A stretch of DNA of 32,226 bases, from the IMG/VR virus record IMGVR_UViG_3300042544_000136, positions 1 to 32,226 of that record; one strand, 5' to 3'. The translations under genes were made by a program, and so were the position numbers. Every line of letters begins with the position of its first letter. Position 1 is the stretch's first letter. The notes under the pieces were generated by a model. That model saw nothing but the letters and a program-made list of their open reading frames with translations. It had not been told where the DNA came from and made no database searches. The DNA comes from a virus. Shown here piece after piece: positions 6,559 through 16,310 of this stretch.

Positions 6559-7584
6559 TTACCCCACTAAGTAGCCATCGGCATCGTAAAAATTTCCGTT
6601 GCCATCGTGATATTCTGCGCCAGTTGGGGCCATCCCGCCATCAGCAAGACGTACACCGCCCCCTTTGGCTTTGCGCATGACTCCGCCCTTGGCGACCTTT
6701 GCCGCACGCAAGCGAGACTCTTCTGCCATCGCGTCGTAGTACGCCTTCTGCGCGTCGGTCGAACTGGAACTTGGAAACAGCGAAGCCACCAAGGAACCCA
6801 AGCCAGCAATCTGCGACAGCGGGCTGTTGGAGTAGCCTTCGGAGCCAGTTGACTGCGTAGTCGTACCCATAGGCATTTGATAGCCCTGCATCAGCTTGGC
6901 AAACTGCTGAGTCTGCGCCATTGGGTAATCGAGCAACTTCTGGCCTTGAGCCTGCTGTTGAGCGCCGTAGTCGGACATGGTCTTCAAACCAGCCAGACCC
7001 ATGCCTTGTTGGGCTTGGCCCAAGTTCTCAAAAGCCTGACCAGCATTCAAAGCGCGAGACAAGTCTGTCTGAGCCTGCGTGCCAGCGGTCGTGTAGCCTT
7101 GCTGGAGGGCTTGCATTTGCTTGCCCATCAAGTCAGCTTGGATGTCACGCAAAGCGTTGCCAGTGACCTGCTGTTGACGACGTGAGCCAAACTGCCCAGA
7201 GCCAACAGCCGCCGCGCCGAGGTTCGGCATGATGTTTTCTTGGACGTTGCGGTTGGTCAAGCGACCCATCTCATCCACCACCGCACTGGTGTATGGGTTC
7301 ATGTAGTCAGCAATGACGTCAGGAACGGTTGTAGCGCCCGCCTCGCCCAGCAATTGAGAAGCCGCACCCATAGACCCAGCGCCAGCAAACGCGACGTCTG
7401 GAGCCATCTGGAAGGCTTGCTGTTGCAAAGGACTGAAGCCAGCGATACCACCTTGCTGGACAGCGTTCTGGCCTAAGTTGGCAATGTCTTGCAGGTAATT
7501 CGTGTAAAACTCTGGAGCCGTCTGCTGGGCTTCCGTCGTCTTGGTAATCGCGGGTAGTGGGTCACCCTGAAATAAGCCAGCCAT
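6559..7584 (-). CDS. Putative internal virion protein, Ala/Gln-rich, with KGG-type C-terminus (341 aa)
   Basis: 341-residue protein, Ala/Gln/Gly-rich and mostly helical, starting MAGLFQGDPLPAITKTTEAQ. A central stretch contains NIMPNLGAAAVGSGQFGSRR followed by QQQ and a long helix with repeated Ala/Gln, a pattern I have seen in hypothetical structural proteins of aquatic phages. The C-terminus changes character: K-x-K-G-G repeats (VAKGGVMRKAKGGGVRLADG) and a small aromatic/Asp tail (DGNGNFYDADGYLVG). It overlaps the start of the next upstream gene by one base. No enzyme motifs are seen. An ejection or capsid-internal role is likely from position. The KGG segment is shared with other late proteins here. 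Confidence 0.55.
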   Translation of the reverse strand: MAGLFQGDPLPAITKTTEAQQTAPEFYTNYLQDIANLGQNAVQQGGIAGFSPLQQQAFQMAPDVAFAGAGSMGAASQLLGEAGATTVPDVIADYMNPYTSAVVDEMGRLTNRNVQENIMPNLGAAAVGSGQFGSRRQQQVTGNALRDIQADLMGKQMQALQQGYTTAGTQAQTDLSRALNAGQAFENLGQAQQGMGLAGLKTMSDYGAQQQAQGQKLLDYPMAQTQQFAKLMQGYQMPMGTTTQSTGSEGYSNSPLSQIAGLGSLVASLFPSSSSTDAQKAYYDAMAEESRLRAAKVAKGGVMRKAKGGGVRLADGGMAPTGAEYHDGNGNFYDADGYLVG

Positions 7585-10406
7585 TATTTCGCTCCTTTGA
7601 GGTATGAGGTCAGCGCCTTGGTCTTGGGCGGAATTTTATTGATTGGAGCCGAGCGCTTGTGGGCGCGGATGCCCTCGCGGAACTTGTCCAAAGCCTGAGC
7701 GCCCGCCTTCGTTGAGCCGTTGCCAATCTGGGCCACGGTCTCGGCGTCAATCACATACTCACCGTCTGCCAGCATAGCTGGGATGTCATCCGACTGTCCA
7801 TCGCCAGCGCCATGCACGGCGGAGCCTTTGCGGAAGTCCATGCGGCCCTGAGTCAGTGGCACGTTGGAAACGTGAGGCAAGCCGCCCTTGCGCATTGGGG
7901 GAGCCATGCCCTGCTGTTGAGGCATCATGCCTTGCTGTGGCATCCCTTGTGGCATTTGTTGCGCCATTTGAGGAGGCTGTTGCTGTGGCAGACCCTGCTG
8001 TTGTGCTTGCTGAGGGGGTTGCTGTTGACCAATCTGAGGCATCATCTCAGGAGGGTTCATTGGGGGTTGCTGACGCATTCCCAAGTTCGCCAAGATGTCC
8101 GCAGGCTGACCGAAGGTGTAGTACGAGGCCACAGGGGTAGCCATCGAAGACAGGCCACCAGAGGCCATTTTGGGAGCCTCTTCTTCAGCGGCAACTTCTT
8201 CGTAGCCGTAGTCGCCTTCGTTCACGGGGTTGTACCCCGGGGCATTCAGGTTCTTCAGCAACTCTGCGTTTGGCGTGTAGTCGCCATCGCTTGTGCCGTA
8301 GTCTTCGTAGCCCACAAAGCGAGTTGGGCCAATTCCAAAATCTGTGGTGCGTGGGTTGATGAGGCCAACCTGCGACATATCCAAACCTTGGTTTTGCGCA
8401 CCAGTACCACCGCTAAAGTCTTGACCAAGCAACGTGGCAACCAAAGCGCCAGCGCCAGCCGCACCTGCGGTTGTGCCAAGCGCACCAGTAATGCCAGACA
8501 GGGCGTCACTACCTAAGCGGGTCAATGTGTTAGCACCACCAGTCAAAACGTTGCCCAAGTTTTCATACCAAGGGCGCTCACCGCCACCAGAGGATGTGAT
8601 GTCTTCTGGAACTTCAGCCGCACGATAAAACTCACCGTTCCTGAAAATATTGCCCAGCGAATCGGTGTCGTAGTACGGCTCTTCCTCATCCGTTGAGTAA
8701 ACGGCATCAGGACTGACGTTGCTGATGTCTCCAGTGTCTGGGTCGGTGGAGTACAGGTACTCGTCCGTCATCATGTCATAGGTGAAGTTGCCAATGGTGT
8801 ATGTGCCATCGCCGTTATCGACGTATCCGCCGTCTTCAAATTTAGCGACTCCGCCTTTTTTCATCATAGTAATCAAGCCTCCACGTTTGCCGTATTCTTC
8901 ATCTTCGTATGGTATGTAATACGACGAGTCGTCATTGTTTACATCGTAGTCGCTGTCCCAATAAATATCTTCTGGGTAATCGGTATAGTCCGATGAGTCG
9001 TTGTAGACGCTGTAGTCTGTGGAGTCATCACTGAGAACGCTGTCATCAAGCGACGCCCAATAGCTGTCGTAATTGAAATCAGTGTCCCACGTCCCGTCTT
9101 CACCCATAGTCCAAACTGCACCAGTTGCATCATCAACCCAAGTGTTGTCAGCAACGGGGGTGTCTTCGTAGATGTCCTCGTCTACTTCTGCGGCACGGTA
9201 AAGGTCATACCCACCGTCAGCAGTTGAGATGTAAACATTACCCAATGAGTCTTCAAAATATTCAGGCTCAAAACCAGTTGAACTGTCGTCTGTACCCACT
9301 GTGTTTGGGGGGAAGGCGTCAATATCTTCATCGACCTCTGCGGCACGATACAACTCATACGTCCCATCAGGCATTGTCTTGTAGACATTGCCCAAAGAGT
9401 CGGTCATGTACTCGTCTTCAGAAACTTCTGCGGCGCGATACAAAACCTCAGTACCGTCTGGCATGACCTGATAAATATTGCCTTTGTCATCCGTTATAAA
9501 TTCATCATCAACTGGCTTTTCAGCTTTTTGAACTAGAACCTCAGAACCATCAGGCATGACTTTGTAAAGATTGCCATCTTTGTCAGTTATTAACTCATCT
9601 TCAACTGGAGGCGCTGGAGGGCCAATATAGTTGGGGTCTCTGGGGTCAGTGACAGGCGGCTTCACCACGCTTGTTGGGGGAGCCTTTGGTTTTACCGCTT
9701 CAGCTTTTGCTTTTGCGGCGGCATCCGCCTTTGCCTTTGCGGCGGCAGTTGCAGTAGCGGCGGCGGCTTTGTCTTTTGACGTGGCGCTGGCTAACGCTTT
9801 CTTTTCAGCGGCAATTTGCGCTGGTGTTTTTGAGACGTTTGGCTTGCCAGTAATTTTGTCAATCAACAGTTTTGTGCCAGCACCAATCGCCGCGCCCGTG
9901 AGTGCGTTCACCACCTTACTGGTGGTCGAGTTTGGATTGCTGACATTTGGCTTGACCGTAGGTTTTACCGCGCCTGTACCAGTTGTGGTCTTGGTGGTCG
10001 GTGTAGTCGTGGTCTTGTTTGTAATCGTCGGTTTTGTCGTCGGCGTGGTTTTAGACGTCAGCGTTGTCTTGGGGACAAGCGTCGTCTTAGGTGTAGATGA
10101 TGTCTTCGTGGTCAAAGATGTCTTTGGAGTCAAAGTAGTCTTTGGCGTCGAAGACGTGCTTGTTGTCAGCGTAGGCTTGGTTGCAGGGTTGACAAACGTC
10201 GAGGTGAACGGGCGGTTACCAACGCCAGATTTGATGTTGGTATTGGAGCCACCAGAGCCACCAGCAGAAGTCAAAGAAGACGCGCCCCTGTCAGAGATGA
10301 AGGGGGTATTGTCTACACCGCGAATGACGCTACCCAGCGGTGCGCGGTCAACTCCCCTTGCGTCAGGAAGTTGTCTGCTTGATGTGCGTTTTTTTAGAAT
10401 AGCCAT
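7584..10406 (-). CDS. Large low-complexity virion protein with tandem 30-aa repeats (940 aa)
   Basis: Modular 940-residue late protein. Order: basic N-terminus (1-50); Thr/Lys/Pro-rich stretch with K-T-T-L-x-P-K-T repeats (about 76-150); Ala/Lys helix (about 195-245); at least four repeats of about 30 residues with consensus D-E-[FY]-[IM]-T-D-x-x-G-N-[LIV]-Y-x-x-M-P-D-G and L-Y-R-A-A-E-V (about 269-412), plus a stray copy near 578-600; an Asp/Tyr-rich acidic region (about 412-505); a K-x-G-G segment (507-527); a hydrophobic Gly/Ala part (620-660); a Gln/Pro/Met-rich run (778-838); and a conserved-looking end with GDGQSDDIPAMLADGEYVID. The last motif recurs in many phage virion proteins. Function unknown; location among ejection-type proteins suggests an internal or tail-tip structural role. 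Confidence 0.6.
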   Translation of the reverse strand: MAILKKRTSSRQLPDARGVDRAPLGSVIRGVDNTPFISDRGASSLTSAGGSGGSNTNIKSGVGNRPFTSTFVNPATKPTLTTSTSSTPKTTLTPKTSLTTKTSSTPKTTLVPKTTLTSKTTPTTKPTITNKTTTTPTTKTTTGTGAVKPTVKPNVSNPNSTTSKVVNALTGAAIGAGTKLLIDKITGKPNVSKTPAQIAAEKKALASATSKDKAAAATATAAAKAKADAAAKAKAEAVKPKAPPTSVVKPPVTDPRDPNYIGPPAPPVEDELITDKDGNLYKVMPDGSEVLVQKAEKPVDDEFITDDKGNIYQVMPDGTEVLYRAAEVSEDEYMTDSLGNVYKTMPDGTYELYRAAEVDEDIDAFPPNTVGTDDSSTGFEPEYFEDSLGNVYISTADGGYDLYRAAEVDEDIYEDTPVADNTWVDDATGAVWTMGEDGTWDTDFNYDSYWASLDDSVLSDDSTDYSVYNDSSDYTDYPEDIYWDSDYDVNNDDSSYYIPYEDEEYGKRGGLITMMKKGGVAKFEDGGYVDNGDGTYTIGNFTYDMMTDEYLYSTDPDTGDISNVSPDAVYSTDEEEPYYDTDSLGNIFRNGEFYRAAEVPEDITSSGGGERPWYENLGNVLTGGANTLTRLGSDALSGITGALGTTAGAAGAGALVATLLGQDFSGGTGAQNQGLDMSQVGLINPRTTDFGIGPTRFVGYEDYGTSDGDYTPNAELLKNLNAPGYNPVNEGDYGYEEVAAEEEAPKMASGGLSSMATPVASYYTFGQPADILANLGMRQQPPMNPPEMMPQIGQQQPPQQAQQQGLPQQQPPQMAQQMPQGMPQQGMMPQQQGMAPPMRKGGLPHVSNVPLTQGRMDFRKGSAVHGAGDGQSDDIPAMLADGEYVIDAETVAQIGNGSTKAGAQALDKFREGIRAHKRSAPINKIPPKTKALTSYLKGAK
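9171..9602 (-). repeat. Tandem 30-residue protein repeats within the 940-aa protein
   Basis: Four imperfect copies, including units beginning DELITDKDGNLYKVMPDGS, DEFITDDKGNIYQVMPDGT and DEYMTDSLGNVYKTMPDGT. Most copies end in L-Y-R-A-A-E-V; the first ends in L-V-Q-K-A-E-K instead. The last full copy is separated from the others by a linker of about 25 residues (DAFPPN...), and a weaker copy (TWVDDATGAVWTMGEDGTW) follows. A further copy lies at about 8601-8675. The copies differ at DNA level, so the array is old rather than a recent duplication. Confidence 0.8.
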
Positions 10407-10409
10407 TTT

Positions 10410-12146
10410 TTATCCACCATTCTTTACAAGCGAAGTCAGACTTGCAATGTCGGTTATAGGAGTTAAGTTTGCTCCGCTTGCCAAAGTCTTTGCAGGCGCG
10501 GCACGAGCAACTTTTTTGACCTGTTGTGTTGGCGCGGCCTTCTGAATTGGAATCAGCTTTGCCACGTCCATGCGTTGTGGTGGAGGCGCTTTGCGTGCAA
10601 CAGGCTTGGCAGTTGCCATTTGCAAACCACCAGCAGGTCTTGGCGCAGGAGCGCGACGCACTGGTTGCTTTTTCTGCGTCAAGGTTTGCTTGAGCAAGTT
10701 GCCAACAGTAGCGACCATAGGCTTGGTGAAGTCTGTGGGTTTGATGCCCATAGAGGTTGCCATTTTTGCTTCAGGCGTTGCTTGTTCTGCTTGCGCAACG
10801 GCATTCAAACCACCAGCGGGTTGGTCAGAAGCCAAGCCAGCAGTCAACAGGTCTTGAGCAACAGGAGCCTCAGACACAACAGCAGGCTTGGATGTGTCCA
10901 AGTCAATTGCTGGTACGGAAGCGTCAGCCAGAGCATTCAAGCCACCCACAGGTTCTGTTGATGCAACAGCAGGAGCCTCGGATGGAAGACCCTCAGCAAT
11001 GTCAATCACGCTTTCAGGGACGTCTTCGGTTCCGACGGGGGCTTGAGCCAACAAGGTGTTGCTAGATGCTGGAGTCTCTTCGCCAAGCAATTCAGCAAAA
11101 TCAGTTTCGCCTTCAGCTTGAGGTGCATCCGCAAAAATTTCACCGCGTCGAACTTCAATCTCAGGAAGAGATTCAGAGTCAGGAAGAATTGCAATCTCAG
11201 ACGTCGGGGTCTCGCCAGTGTATGAAGATGTTGCGTTGTTGACGCCTGCTGTTTCATCAGCGTCAGCCAACACGCTTGCAACATCAAAAGTGCCTGCGTC
11301 GTTTTCTACGCCGTAACCAGACACAGTGACTTGACCAACAACTTCATCAGGGATACCAGCGCCAGTTGTTGCTACGCTGACTGGTTCGCCTTCTTTGTCT
11401 TTCTCGTTCCAATCAGTTGCGGCGGTGCGGAACTGCTTATCAATTGATTCGTTGACTTCGCGAACGCCATAGTCAACACCTGAGCCAACCGCGCTGTTTG
11501 CGAATGCAGTTTCAAAGTCGCCTCGACCAGTCACTTCAGCAGTGATGCCAGATGAGAATGCTCTTGTGCCTGCGTTGAAGACTGCGGTTGCGTCTTGCAA
11601 GTCCAATCCGCTTTCCATAGCCAACTCAATGACGTCAGGCTTGACGTAGCTTGCAACTTCGCTGACGCCGCCTGAGACCATACCGCCAGTGAATCCACCA
11701 GCAAAGCCGTCTTCAAAATCGCCGCCTTTAATTTCTGCAATCGTTCCGTTGACCAAGCCCTTGCTGATTGAAGAACTTGCAACTTGGGAGAAAGTTTCGT
11801 TGAATCCAGCTTCAATGAAAGTAGATGACACGGTAGAAGAAATTGCGTTGCCAACGCTGGGGGCAAAATAAGCCGTACCCATCGACAAAGCAATATCTTC
11901 AAGGTCACCACCGCGTGCGGCAGTGATTGCGCCCATCGTGACGGCAGGAGGTATGCCGACAAAACTGCCAGCAACAGAGAGTAGGACAGGGAGAGGGTCG
12001 TCAATTACCGCCTGAACAACGTCACCAACTTTTTCGACAACGTCTCCGACAACCTCAACAACGTCTTCAACGACGTCACCAACAGCCTCAAATACGTCAC
12101 CGACTGCGTCACCGACATCTTCAATGAAACTGACAACTGCGCTCAT
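10410..12146 (-). CDS. Putative membrane-active internal virion protein with Val-rich heptads (578 aa)
   Basis: 578-residue late protein. The N-terminus is an unusual 7-residue periodic helix built from V-G-D-V/V-E-D-V units (about residues 8-48), followed by a hydrophobic Pro/Val/Gly-rich segment (about 50-75) and a long Gly/Ala/Ser region with small-residue periodicity (about 75-240) that resembles colicin-like or membrane-inserting phage proteins. The middle is acidic and low in complexity (about 250-470). The C-terminus is strongly basic and Pro/Ala-rich (QKKQPVRRAPAPRPAGG, RKAPPPQ). Strong charge polarity between halves would suit a protein packed with DNA and extruded into the envelope. 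No family name is recognised. It lies between the acyl-enzyme cassette and the 940-aa protein. Confidence 0.55.
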   Translation of the reverse strand: MSAVVSFIEDVGDAVGDVFEAVGDVVEDVVEVVGDVVEKVGDVVQAVIDDPLPVLLSVAGSFVGIPPAVTMGAITAARGGDLEDIALSMGTAYFAPSVGNAISSTVSSTFIEAGFNETFSQVASSSISKGLVNGTIAEIKGGDFEDGFAGGFTGGMVSGGVSEVASYVKPDVIELAMESGLDLQDATAVFNAGTRAFSSGITAEVTGRGDFETAFANSAVGSGVDYGVREVNESIDKQFRTAATDWNEKDKEGEPVSVATTGAGIPDEVVGQVTVSGYGVENDAGTFDVASVLADADETAGVNNATSSYTGETPTSEIAILPDSESLPEIEVRRGEIFADAPQAEGETDFAELLGEETPASSNTLLAQAPVGTEDVPESVIDIAEGLPSEAPAVASTEPVGGLNALADASVPAIDLDTSKPAVVSEAPVAQDLLTAGLASDQPAGGLNAVAQAEQATPEAKMATSMGIKPTDFTKPMVATVGNLLKQTLTQKKQPVRRAPAPRPAGGLQMATAKPVARKAPPPQRMDVAKLIPIQKAAPTQQVKKVARAAPAKTLASGANLTPITDIASLTSLVKNGG

Positions 12147-12148
12147 GC

Positions 12149-12592
12149 TTATTCCCTTTCAGCCCGCTTTGGCCCTAATTTGACCGTCACGCGGAAACCT
12201 GTTTTGGTTCTCTCGGCTTTGTAGCCCATGCCCTCTTGCGGGGGGTTGCGTGAGATTGCTTTGAAAATGTTCATAATCGTTGGGTCTTCAAACTCGCTTA
12301 CAAGCGTGTCAAAACCCATCTTGTATGCACCTTGGATGAAGGCGTATGAACTCTCTAGGTAGTTGCGGGCGGTGTCTGCGTTTAAGGCGCGGAACACACC
12401 AACACGCCCCTCGGCGTTGTGAATAACGAAAAGGGTGTTGCCCTCGCGCACGATAGATGTGCCGGGCATATTCATCTCTTTGACCATTGCCGCGTAGACA
12501 GTGGAGGCAGGGTGTGGCGACTTGGTTTCTTGAGCCGCAATCATCAAGATTGCTTCTTGACCCAGTTGTTTCTTTTTGCTATCGACCAGCAT
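12149..12592 (-). CDS. Small late protein, possibly GNAT-fold acyltransferase (147 aa)
   Basis: Mixed alpha/beta protein of 147 residues. The C-terminal half reads as a strand (GNTLFVIHNAEGRVGVFRAL), a long helix (about 85-105, LESSYAFIQGAYKMG), a strand (FDTLVSEF), a helix (PTIMNIFKAISRN) and two final strands, the order seen in GNAT acyltransferases and in T7 gp13-like internal virion proteins. No clear acetyl-CoA loop (R/Q-x-x-G-x-G/A) is visible, so the call is weak. The start is ATG at 12592, overlapping the ketosynthase stop (TGATG) with AAGGGG five bases upstream; a GTG at 12595 is also possible but too near the ribosome site. Coupling to ACP and ketosynthase genes makes an acyl-ACP user an attractive idea. 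Confidence 0.4.
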   Translation of the reverse strand: MLVDSKKKQLGQEAILMIAAQETKSPHPASTVYAAMVKEMNMPGTSIVREGNTLFVIHNAEGRVGVFRALNADTARNYLESSYAFIQGAYKMGFDTLVSEFEDPTIMNIFKAISRNPPQEGMGYKAERTKTGFRVTVKLGPKRAERE

Positions 12593-13701
12593 CACATCCC
12601 CTTAAAAATTGCGGCGGAATAGATGTTGCCCATCCCAGCCGCCAGACTCATTATCAGACCATCAGGTGGTGTTGTCGATTCCGAAAGGAATACCGAATCG
12701 GTTTCAGTTCGGTTCTCAATCGCTGGAACAACTCCAGACCTAATATCGTTTAACAGTAAAAGTGTCTCAAGCAATCCACTGCTACCCATCGTATGACCAA
12801 TTTTTTGCTTATACGAGGTTGCAACGAATGCTTTTAGCGTTTGGTTCAAGGCGTTCTTTTCAGCCTTGTTGTTGGACGCAGTTCCAGTGCCGTGGGTTTT
12901 GACTATTTTAATCTCATCAGGGGATATATTGCTATAGTGCATAGCACCTTCCATAGCCTTGATGAAGCCCTCACCGTCCTCGCACTGCCCAATTGCATTT
13001 GTAGAGCGCTCTGAGGCGCTGTAAGCCCCCACCAGACGGGCGTGAGGCTTGATTTGTTGCCGTGCTACAGCGTCGCGGGACTCAAATACAGCCAAGGCCG
13101 CGCCCTGACCAATCCGAAACCCAAAGTTCGTCGAGTCGAAAGCGGATGGCTTTATGCCCTCCTGCTCTTGCTTTTCTGTCAACACAGCCTTGGAGTCGCC
13201 AAAGAACTCCAGCACAGCGTTGGAGACGCCATCCTCAACGGTCAGAACGATTACACGGTCGTAATCGTAGAAGTCAATGAGGTTGACCACATCCATCATC
13301 ACCTTGAGGCTTGAAGCGCAGGCGCTGGCATCGGTGGTGACCATGTCCATGTCTCCGAACGACTGAGCAATGCGACCCGCATAGACCTGCGTCAACGTGA
13401 ATGGCAGGAACTTGTAGGTGTAGGTCAGGCGAGAGTCATAGGCTCTCTGACCGATGCCAGCAAAGTGTGCGTTGCCACCAGCAAGAATGAATGCTGTCTT
13501 GCCCACAGGATTTTCCCGCAGGAAGGTAAGCAACTCAGGGTCAAGAACCTTCTCCGCCAGCTTGTGAGGGACGTAGACCAGACCTGATTTTGTTCGGCTG
13601 TAGGTGTCTGGGAACCAGTTCACCTTTTGGGGGTAGATGATGTCGTCGAAGAGTTCGACGTCTTGGGTTGATGCAGTGCGGTAGTGCGTGAGATAAATCA
13701 T
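12592..13701 (-). CDS. Beta-ketoacyl-ACP synthase (KAS I/II, FabB/FabF-like)
   Basis: Thiolase-fold enzyme that condenses acyl and malonyl chains on ACP. 369 residues. Motifs: V-T-T-D-A-S-A-C128-A-S-S (active-site cysteine), K-T-H270-G-T-G-T (first histidine), Y-K298-Q-K-I-G-H303-T-M-G-S-S-G (lysine and second histidine). Spacings Cys-His 142 and His-His 33 are close to E. coli FabF (140 and 37). The conserved C-terminal F-G-G-T-N loop is replaced by A-A-G-M-G-N, and the protein is about 40 residues shorter than FabF. The start at 13701 (MIYLTHYRTA) overlaps the ACP stop as ATGA with GAGGTG upstream; the longer open frame to 13797 lies inside the ACP gene and is rejected. Family assignment is firm; product and substrate are unknown. 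Confidence 0.9.
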   Translation of the reverse strand: MIYLTHYRTASTQDVELFDDIIYPQKVNWFPDTYSRTKSGLVYVPHKLAEKVLDPELLTFLRENPVGKTAFILAGGNAHFAGIGQRAYDSRLTYTYKFLPFTLTQVYAGRIAQSFGDMDMVTTDASACASSLKVMMDVVNLIDFYDYDRVIVLTVEDGVSNAVLEFFGDSKAVLTEKQEQEGIKPSAFDSTNFGFRIGQGAALAVFESRDAVARQQIKPHARLVGAYSASERSTNAIGQCEDGEGFIKAMEGAMHYSNISPDEIKIVKTHGTGTASNNKAEKNALNQTLKAFVATSYKQKIGHTMGSSGLLETLLLLNDIRSGVVPAIENRTETDSVFLSESTTPPDGLIMSLAAGMGNIYSAAIFKGM

Positions 13702-13979
13702 TTGCACACCTCGACGACTTCTTCCATCGACGCTGGCTCTTTGGTCTTGTTCGCCATCACAAGGTCGTGGAGTTCCTGCACCGACTTGGGTGACCACTCT
13801 TTGCTCACCTCGTCAGCGATACCGTAGAGTTCGTCGAAGTACATCAGCATGACCAGCCCGTCAAGGCTGTCCAAACCGATTTCTTGAAAGACGTCGTCCA
13901 TCGACTCTGCGATGGTGACTTTGGCGTGTGCTGGTCGCGCCACCTTTGCCACATAGTTAAAGATTTCAATGAAGGTCAT
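13698..13979 (-). CDS. Acyl carrier protein (ACP)
   Basis: Carries acyl chains on a 4'-phosphopantetheine arm for the coupled ketosynthase. 93 residues, acidic, four-helix pattern, with the attachment motif G-L-D37-S38-L-D-G (E. coli AcpP Ser36 in the same context D-S-L-D). Helix II/III features follow: M-L-M-Y-F-D-E-L-Y-G-I matches the usual V-x-x-x-E-E-x-F-G-I. It is longer than AcpP (78) by an N-terminal helix and a C-terminal tail EPASMEEVVEVCK. The end overlaps the ketosynthase start as ATGA, so the two are made together. Its own start overlaps the 86-aa gene. No phosphopantetheinyl transferase is in the window, so host AcpS would be needed to activate it. Confidence 0.9.
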   Translation of the reverse strand: MTFIEIFNYVAKVARPAHAKVTIAESMDDVFQEIGLDSLDGLVMLMYFDELYGIADEVSKEWSPKSVQELHDLVMANKTKEPASMEEVVEVCK

Positions 13980-14236
13980 GTTGCCGTTTCCTCAGTAGGT
14001 TGATTGACTGCTCCGACCAGTGCTGATGCCCAGTCCTGCCAGTTCTCATAGATGTAGGGGCCGGGGATACCTTCGTTCGTAAAAACGTCAATAGCCTTTA
14101 AACCTGCCGCCCATTGCTTCCACTCCTCTTCGGGAGTGTTTGACGATAGCTGTTGCGCCGCATACGCCTCGCACATAAGACTCGTCCAAGACTCCCATGT
14201 CTGGTATCGAGGGTCGTATACAACAGCAAGCGCCAT
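13976..14236 (-). CDS. Conserved small late phage protein (86 aa), Trp-rich
   Basis: Acidic 86-residue protein starting MALAVVYDPRYQTWESWTSL. It has five tryptophans (WESW, EEEWKQWAAG, ENWQDWAS), spaced like repeated W-x-x-W helices, and G-I-P-G-P-Y in between. The start at 14236 is one base past the previous stop (14238) and is preferred over an in-frame ATG at 14266 inside the upstream gene. Its stop overlaps the ACP start (ATGA). I have a weak memory of similar hypothetical proteins between tail stabilisation and ejection genes in aquatic phages. Function unknown; it is directly coupled to ACP and could be a structural adaptor or a partner of the acyl cassette. Confidence 0.55.
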   Translation of the reverse strand: MALAVVYDPRYQTWESWTSLMCEAYAAQQLSSNTPEEEWKQWAAGLKAIDVFTNEGIPGPYIYENWQDWASALVGAVNQPTEETAT

Positions 14237-14237
14237 A

Positions 14238-16310
14238 TTAGTTTCCGAAAGGTCTGACGTCGCCAAGCGTTACGCTCAACAACACCTTGCCCATTTGGTA
14301 ATCACCACCGCTCACGTTACTTCTAAAACGCAAACGAATCTCGCGCCGTTGCTGGCGCATATCAATCTTGCCTGTATCTGGGTCAAACGGATACTCCTGA
14401 GAGGGTACGTCTGATGACTGGGCATACGGACGACCTGTGACCTGCAAGGTCATCTCACCCTCTTGAACGAAGTCAGGCTCGACGCGCTCCAAGTTGACCC
14501 AGAAGTTTTCGCCCACGGGCGCGGTCTGGGCAGGCCCACCAGCCACAAAACCCAAGTCGCTGGTTTGGAAGTAGCTGTCAATCGCGTTGGAGGATTCAAA
14601 GATGACCTCGTCAGTGCCAATTTCGTGTTGCCAGAGGGTAACCCTGCCTGCGGTCGTATTGAACGTCACAGGGACGGTTGCCGAGGCTGTAGCAGGGTTG
14701 TCCAGCGTGACGGTGTAGTAGTTGGGCGTTGCGCTTGGCGCAATGGCAATCACGACCGAAATGTTAGTGATGCCTGCGCCAATGACTTGCTGACCCAACA
14801 GCACCAAGTTGGTGTTTGGGATTTCAATGTTGGCACTACCGTTTACCGTGGTAGCGGTGGTAGAAAAAACTTCAGTCAACTCGCTCAAGGTTGCGCCAGC
14901 GTTGATGGGGAAGCGGAACACCGTAGAGAAGAACCCAGCGGTACGGTACGCACCCAAAGCACCGCCAGCGTCATACCAACAGTCTTCACGGATGTTGTAG
15001 ATGATGCAGTCGTTGCACTCTTCACTGTCGCCCGAAGGGAAGAACCACCAAATTTCGCCAAAACGAGGAACCTTGTTGGCGTACACCTTTTGGCGCTGGT
15101 TGTAGTTCAGGTTGTCAAAAAAGTAGTTTTGATTGAACGTGTTCTTGATTTCCTTGACCACACCGTTGTAAAGCAGGAATCGGTCAACGCCAATCCAGTA
15201 GTAGATGCCGTCGTACTCAATGACGCACTGGCTGGAAAGAATGGAAGACTGGCTGGAAATGATGTCATAGCGCCAGTAAAAGGTTTGAGGAGAGCCTGCA
15301 ACTGTCACGGTGGTGGGGGTGTAGCTGACGCGAATCAGTGAGTCCAAAGACCAGAACAAACCCGAAGGAGCGTTCGAGCCGCCGCGTACTGGTAGACCTT
15401 TGACAATCTTGGTCGAAGACACGTTGGTCTCGTTGGCGTCCGCACCGTTCCAGTTAAATGGATTGCCTGCAACGCAGTTCTTGATGAGGCCATTGTCGCC
15501 ATAGACGAAGACATAGGGGTGAAGCACCACCACACCGCCAGAGACTTCAATCAGGTCGCCTGTTGGAGTAGAACCTGCGGTGTCAGCCAAGGGAGACATA
15601 TTGGTTCCGCTGATGTCACCTGCAAACACAATGGTGTTCACGATGGCGTCAGTCTGTGCAAGGTTTTGACCTGCGTGAGCCAACAACAATTGGTTGTTGC
15701 TTCCTTGCGAATCGAACATGGAGTCAAACTGCCACAGGTTCAAATCGCTTGGGATGAACGAGCCATTGACGGTCGCAATCGGCACGGAGAAGCCTGAGCC
15801 AGTTCCGCCAATGCTTGCCGCTGGTGCGCTCAATACGTCGCCCACGTTGTAGTAGTTGCCGCCGTTGGTTACAGTGACCGTGGTCACGGTGTTGCCAGCG
15901 ACCACGATGGTGGCTATTGCGCCAGAACCAGAACCGCCAGTCAACGCTACGCTTGTGTAGGTTCCGTTGGTGTAGGCAGTTCCGCCAGTTACCGTGCCTA
16001 GCGTCAAAATATTGGAGCCAAAGTTTATTTGGTTGACGCCAGAGCCAATGCCGTTGTTGTCTACGTTGAGGACTTCAAGACCGTTGTTGTAGCCGTTGAA
16101 GACTTGGTTGTTGCCGTCTACGGAGTTGACATATAAACCGCGAGAGTAGCCCTTAGCATCACTGGTGATGGCGCGGTAACCACCAATTTTGCGTGGACGC
16201 CCACGTTGAAAACGCACCCAAAGTGCGTCTGTGTAGAAGTTCATATCGAAAATCGTGCCGTCGCGTTGGACGCCCGGCAACGTGTCGATAGTAAAAACCT
16301 TCTTGACCAT
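14238..16310 (-). CDS. Tail stabilisation / hub protein, P22 gp10-like
   Basis: Likely part of the tail that closes the portal and supports fibres. 690 residues starting MVKKVFTIDTLPGVQRDGTI, with a Y-T-D-A-L-W-V-R-F-Q-R-G-R-P-R-K-I-G-G-Y opening typical of phage tail hub or packaged-DNA stabilisation proteins. A mid-region W-R-Y-D-I-I-S-S-Q-S-S, C-V-I-E-Y-D-G-I-Y-Y-W-I-G-V-D-R-F-L-L-Y and E-I-W-W-F-F-P resembles the repeated strands of the gp10 beta-propeller. A Gly/Thr/Asn-rich insert near 90-190 looks like a fibre-type beta domain. It lies between a fibre and the 86-aa gene. The gp10-like label comes from pattern and position; a propeller tail-fibre-associated protein is the alternative. 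Confidence 0.65.
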   Translation of the reverse strand: MVKKVFTIDTLPGVQRDGTIFDMNFYTDALWVRFQRGRPRKIGGYRAITSDAKGYSRGLYVNSVDGNNQVFNGYNNGLEVLNVDNNGIGSGVNQINFGSNILTLGTVTGGTAYTNGTYTSVALTGGSGSGAIATIVVAGNTVTTVTVTNGGNYYNVGDVLSAPAASIGGTGSGFSVPIATVNGSFIPSDLNLWQFDSMFDSQGSNNQLLLAHAGQNLAQTDAIVNTIVFAGDISGTNMSPLADTAGSTPTGDLIEVSGGVVVLHPYVFVYGDNGLIKNCVAGNPFNWNGADANETNVSSTKIVKGLPVRGGSNAPSGLFWSLDSLIRVSYTPTTVTVAGSPQTFYWRYDIISSQSSILSSQCVIEYDGIYYWIGVDRFLLYNGVVKEIKNTFNQNYFFDNLNYNQRQKVYANKVPRFGEIWWFFPSGDSEECNDCIIYNIREDCWYDAGGALGAYRTAGFFSTVFRFPINAGATLSELTEVFSTTATTVNGSANIEIPNTNLVLLGQQVIGAGITNISVVIAIAPSATPNYYTVTLDNPATASATVPVTFNTTAGRVTLWQHEIGTDEVIFESSNAIDSYFQTSDLGFVAGGPAQTAPVGENFWVNLERVEPDFVQEGEMTLQVTGRPYAQSSDVPSQEYPFDPDTGKIDMRQQRREIRLRFRSNVSGGDYQMGKVLLSVTLGDVRPFGN

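Follow-up and report, generated by a model that had tools for sequence, protein, structure and literature searches.

The described systems closest to the locus analysed here include: (i) the HlyC/RtxC acyltransferases of pore-forming toxins, for which acyl-acyl carrier protein (acyl-ACP) is the donor used by HlyC and the GNAT fold of ApxIC, an RtxC member, is without the coenzyme A (CoA)-binding elements (PMC8339906), (ii) fatty acid genes of phages, already reported as phage ACPs (PMC5463345) and as prophage fab genes (PMC8224337), and (iii) gp13 of phage T7, a small protein encoded between the tail and the internal virion proteins. The protein families of the present locus are individually known; in the open-licence literature, no report was found of an ACP, a ketosynthase and a GNAT-fold protein that are encoded jointly in the late operon of a phage and paired with a matching ejection protein. 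The set occurs in IMG/VR virus record IMGVR_UViG_3300042544_000136, a 32,226-bp contig without bacterial flanks (the window, analysed at its full length), and its genes, like those of the hub and the small protein described below, lie on the minus strand: an ACP (13698-13979, 93 aa), a FabF-like beta-ketoacyl-ACP synthase (KAS; 12592-13701, 369 aa) and a GNAT-fold protein (12149-12595, 148 aa) that overlaps the KAS stop, followed by a probable ejection protein (10410-12146, 578 aa). The ACP, KAS and GNAT genes travel together as a block and are read, with a probability of roughly 45%, as a phage-borne protein acylation cassette in which the GNAT-fold protein would take an acyl chain from the ACP and place it on the ejection protein.

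The block is gained and lost as a whole. With the tail hub as bait (in the window a 690-aa P22 gp10-like 'stabilization' protein, 14238-16310), 37 loci had enough downstream sequence, and all three genes are present at 28, none at eight and the GNAT gene only at one (L134). At the eight block-less loci, a small protein is followed directly, where readable, by a different long protein. Whole-record searches of the nine loci without the full block, whose records may be fragments, found no KAS in seven of the nine, and the GNAT gene is absent from six of these seven, the exception being the record of L134. The same linkage is seen from the other genes: no KAS locus with room lacks the ACP or GNAT gene (the ACP is present wherever there is room to see among 135 distinct KAS loci), and ACP and KAS accompany the GNAT gene at 100 of its 101 distinct loci with room. 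On a quick tree of the hub, which has some long branches, the block changes state at least seven times, four of these changes being forced by well-supported branches. L134 suggests a GNAT-fold protein that is able to use host acyl-ACP or that has another role. The small protein (86 aa; 13976-14236 in the window), which precedes the ACP, also occurs in Caulobacter phage GB2A, where a related hub is present and the block is absent. Because it is found with or without the block, it is a core structural gene outside it, and a tight unit that includes it was rejected.

The KAS is a predicted FabF-like enzyme with intact catalytic residues. It matches the Pfam ketoacyl-synt N-terminal (2.6e-9, 37.5 bits) and C-terminal (9.9e-16, 58.3 bits) domains above the cut-off of 20.8 bits, and FabF is its best match among NCBIfam and PDB entries, the closest solved structures being FabF (1.8e-24). 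Cys128, His270, Lys298 and His303 align with FabF Cys163, His303, Lys335 and His340, and this Cys-His-Lys-His set, shared with FabF/FabB, is invariant in 61 distinct KASs. By contrast, the phage protein is only 23% identical to E. coli FabF, is shorter, has diverged over its N-terminal ~90 residues, and carries GMGN (residues 356-359) in place of the FabF gate GFGG (Phe400), a change that is invariant, Met357 included, in all relatives examined. Against the FabF equivalog model TIGR03150 it scores 113.9 bits, below the curated cut-off of 493.75, and is therefore FabF-like rather than FabF. The reading frame is taken from its ATG, as a mechanical GTG start at 13797 was judged too long. The gate (window 12625-12636) hints at unusual substrate gating.

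Ketosynthases condense malonyl-ACP with acyl-ACP, and completion of the chain needs host reductases and a dehydratase. A FabF-type KAS with invariant catalytic residues would also suit a pair of auxiliary metabolic genes, in which ACP and KAS alter the host fatty acid pool or membrane late (lysis, fluidity or receptor masking) and the GNAT-fold neighbour is an unrelated assembly factor. Precedents are the ACPs of other phages (PMC5463345) and the fabG-acpP-fabF genes of Rhodobacteraceae prophages, which likewise combine an ACP with a KAS in a phage and are set apart, in the portion of the description available, by the inclusion of fabG and by no mention of an adjacent GNAT gene (PMC8224337). 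The genes of the present block instead lie inside the structural operon, not among early or other metabolic genes, and no fabG or other fatty acid gene was noted among the ten other proteins scanned in one 53-kb relative. The KAS and GNAT genes are also gained and lost together, and the type of ejection protein tracks the block. A purely metabolic role is accordingly considered unlikely.

The predicted ACP is weakly identified from the single sequence and secure as a family. The window protein scores 12.6 bits (E 0.17) against Pfam PP-binding (PF00550), under the cut-off of 20.8 bits, while the same model is matched by 18 of 34 family members (E up to 0.1; best 8.7e-4), and the matches listed for the family profile against the PDB are carrier proteins (best 2.2e-4). 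The phosphopantetheine site, Ser38, lies in a D-S-L-D-G motif that is invariant in 67 distinct ACPs of the relatives' alignment. An AlphaFold2 model (mean predicted local distance difference test score, pLDDT, 93.6) has the ACP helical-bundle topology with Ser38 starting helix II, and its top Foldseek matches are ACPs, either alone or as chains in larger complexes, with weak E-values (0.025 and up) and probabilities near 1. The phage protein shares with bacterial type II ACPs their topology and the DSL serine that opens helix II; it differs in its length of 93 aa, an extra C-terminal helix and weak sequence similarity.

The ACP and KAS genes are joined by an ATGA stop/start overlap (13698-13701), identical in 67 of 70 relatives. 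The original prediction, made from the sequence of the window, described an intact phage ACP and KAS pair in the late operon between a tail hub and ejection proteins, and this description is borne out by the open reading frames, the Pfam KAS domains, the invariant residues and the flanking genes (the P22 gp10/'stabilization'-type hub and probable ejection proteins). Both proteins fall inside the families named, and the adjacency has been conserved across hundreds of viral contigs without bacterial flanks. The claim that residue spacings are those of FabF holds exactly for Lys-His (5) and only approximately for Cys-His (142 versus 140) and His-Lys (28 versus 32). Absence of the pair from related phages, had it come with a bacterial insertion, was named as a sign against the prediction; no such insertion is seen, and the close relatives without the pair (such as L131 and L142) lack the whole block. 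The third gene and the link to the type of ejection protein had been missed. A requirement for host AcpS, which that prediction also named, and for the remaining fatty acid enzymes of the host is plausible.

The product of that third gene has no significant sequence match in Pfam, NCBIfam or the PDB. Its AlphaFold2 model (30 aligned sequences; pLDDT 90.7) has the order helix-helix-strand-strand-strand-helix-strand-helix-strand-strand, which is the GNAT order, and the matches listed in the PDB are GNAT acetyl/acyltransferases (best E 3.3e-4, TM ~0.57, probability 1.00). At the position of the CoA P-loop, placed by the topology of the model, the protein has R-A-L-N-A-D rather than the Q/R-x-x-G-x-G/A motif of GNATs, and the residues N72, A73 and D74 are invariant in 54 sequences. 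Since the P-loop is not canonical, only a GNAT fold is assigned and membership as an enzyme is putative. Ser6 is invariant and His59 is present in 53 of 54 sequences. A relative encodes, far from the late operon, a protein of 363 aa (L092:10566-11654) in which Pfam finds both an ABC-type ATPase motif and a GNAT domain.

A close likeness is to the HlyC/RtxC group, where ApxIC also has a GNAT fold without a detectable sequence link to GNATs and atypical for CoA (PMC8339906), an acyl-ACP donor is at hand and the gene lies beside that of a large amphipathic client protein. The phage cassette differs in bringing its own ACP and KAS, in having as its client a putative ejection protein, with no lysine conserved near the N-terminus, rather than a secreted toxin, and in giving no RtxC profile match; no N-terminal His is conserved in the GNAT-fold protein, and no conserved HlyC-like N-terminal His/Ser pair was found. 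The likeness to T7 gp13 is one of size and gene position. Homology to gp13 by sequence was rejected, as no match to its profile (PF11090) was detected, profile comparison included, and the corresponding stretch of T7 contains neither an ACP nor a KAS gene.

The probable ejection protein that follows the block is of a distinct type. This 'type A' protein (MSAVV... in the window) starts M-[S/G/A]-..V.. and has an amphipathic region followed by a hydrophobic stretch (about residues 52-70 in the window protein). It follows every GNAT locus except the near-identical pair L239 and L240, and the type-A profile score has a median of 96.8 bits with the GNAT gene versus at most 5.6 without it. Co-variation was measured from distance matrices over 79 loci as partial rank correlations. 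The GNAT-fold and ejection proteins are coupled (0.61; 0 of 300 permutations as high), as are KAS and ACP (0.69), compared to 0.09 for KAS with the GNAT-fold protein and 0.09 for KAS with the ejection protein. At L016, a window-like KAS is accompanied by a different GNAT-fold protein and a different client subtype, and L072 and L074 show the reverse. The KAS and GNAT genes usually overlap by four bases and yet are uncoupled; thus, adjacency alone poorly explains the coupling of the GNAT-fold and ejection proteins. These couplings are consistent with an enzyme and its substrate, or a chaperone and its client, which the ACP-KAS pair would feed. In the loci without the cassette, most of the long proteins share an IAETAAQYGVS-like motif, an alternative ejection protein type, and at L131, L142, L151 and L154 the next long protein starts with a Pro-rich acidic region.

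Co-variation of this kind is as compatible with a chaperone and its client as with an enzyme and its substrate, and the GNAT-fold protein could be a T7 gp13-like scaffold or chaperone, with ACP and KAS as assembly partners or as makers of a small acyl ligand that is packed along with the ejection protein, and with no covalent transfer. The gene position of T7 gene 13, the non-canonical P-loop position, the retention of the GNAT gene without ACP and KAS at L134 and the structural role of ACP subunits in mitochondrial complex I (seen among the PDB matches) are all in keeping with such an arrangement. This role is nevertheless judged improbable: similarity to gp13 is undetectable in sequence, N72-A73-D74 is invariant, and the invariant Ser38 of the ACP and catalytic set of the KAS are unneeded for a purely structural role.

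The coupling also bears on what the ACP and KAS may make. GNAT-related LuxI and N-acyl amino acid synthases use acyl-ACP, and the three proteins could form a short pathway to a diffusible or envelope acyl compound (e.g., an N-acylated amino compound) serving as a superinfection block or a signal. Such a product seems very unlikely, as the genes are in a late structural position and so tight a co-variation between the GNAT-fold and ejection proteins is unexpected for a small-molecule enzyme. Of the three uses first proposed for the pair, linkage favours modification of a virion protein over a change of the envelope or the blocking of other phages.

An acylation cassette would work as follows. 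ACPs need AcpS, and GNATs transfer acyl groups to amines. Host AcpS would load phosphopantetheine onto Ser38 of the phage ACP. There the KAS of the phage, together with malonyl-ACP, reductase and dehydratase from the host, may elongate or select an acyl chain. The GNAT-fold protein, with a P-loop position seemingly ill-suited to CoA, would accept the chain from the ACP and pass it to the adjacent ejection protein, in a working mode like that of HlyC/RtxC on pore-forming toxins and as no member of that family. With a lipid attached, the amphipathic ejection protein may enter the membrane more readily as the genome is delivered. The fuller form of this scheme, a phage-encoded lipidation pathway in which ACP and KAS make a particular chain that a GNAT-fold acyltransferase attaches to its cognate ejection protein to give a phage-made lipoprotein, is put forward more tentatively.

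Lysine acylation near the N-terminus of the ejection protein is unsupported, as no lysine column exceeds 46% and 33 of 96 sequences have no lysine in the first 100 residues. Because no lysine is conserved there, the acceptor may possibly be the N-terminal amine of Ser, Gly or Ala, one of which is residue 2 in 96 of 96 aligned sequences.

Several points weigh against a protein acylation cassette. Residue 2 is usually small in several neighbouring late proteins too, which weakens N-terminal Ser/Gly as a special mark, and the N-terminal acceptor site is therefore only a guess. Phage proteins with a GNAT fold and no ACP are common, the non-canonical CoA P-loop could also mean lost catalysis, and the GNAT-fold protein shows no obvious HlyC-like catalytic His/Ser pair. 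The KAS by itself is unable to complete a fatty acid. Pfam files the product of T7 gene 13, which occupies the corresponding position, as a 'probable scaffold protein', and coupling between neighbouring genes can arise from physical linkage. Finally, L134 (5203-5652) has the GNAT gene and a type-A protein, with no ACP or KAS on its 18-kb contig.

The viruses that carry the block are widespread in metagenomes and are aquatic bacterial viruses. IMG/VR contains at least 349 KAS relatives; 80 of them were retained, and more distant ones were added from a second scan. Among isolates and named phage records, the block is found only in the uncultured phage MW202545 (57 kb, Manatee Spring), where it is in the same place, with identities of 61% (KAS), 43% (ACP) and 37% (GNAT); there, by contrast, the KAS alone is annotated and the ACP and GNAT genes are filed as hypothetical. 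A single match was found among GTDB genome contigs, a phage-like contig with the same gene order in a Balneolaceae metagenome-assembled genome (L083, JAGYJQ010000016.1), which is a possible host hint or a case of misbinning. In 61 genomes sampled around this assembly, cellular KASs score at most 82 bits versus 553, and no close KAS homologue was found other than on the phage contig. The KAS family is therefore old and viral, and not recently captured.

A bacterial insertion or prophage debris was rejected as the source of the block, given the virus record, the hundreds of viral contigs with the block and the phage-like nature of the sole GTDB match. Decay, which the original prediction had also dismissed, was rejected on the invariant catalytic and carrier residues and a ratio of nonsynonymous to synonymous substitution rates of about 0.09 (about 0.086-0.095 for the ACP, KAS and GNAT genes alike).

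If true, the cassette would offer a concrete chemical answer to how short-tailed phages get internal proteins across bacterial membranes, and phage fatty acid genes would here serve virion building, not host metabolism. A function would likewise be suggested for those GNAT-fold proteins of phage ejection loci that currently carry the label scaffold or unknown, and others at podovirus ejection loci (the T7 gp13 position) might be acyltransferases.

Other products of the window include an SU10-type adaptor, an endolysin, a holin, a major capsid-type protein and probable ejection proteins, the last assigned from weak profile matches and gene order. Searches of the window for transfer RNAs and Rfam families found none. 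In relatives, the gene for a GroES/Cpn10-like protein lies upstream of that for the major capsid protein (L093:4541-4966; MW202545, L082:267-722). Window positions 7584-10406 encode a protein of 940 aa that has long low-complexity stretches, rich in Thr/Lys/Pro and in Gln/Pro/Met, and a C-terminal part matching GB2A gp065c.
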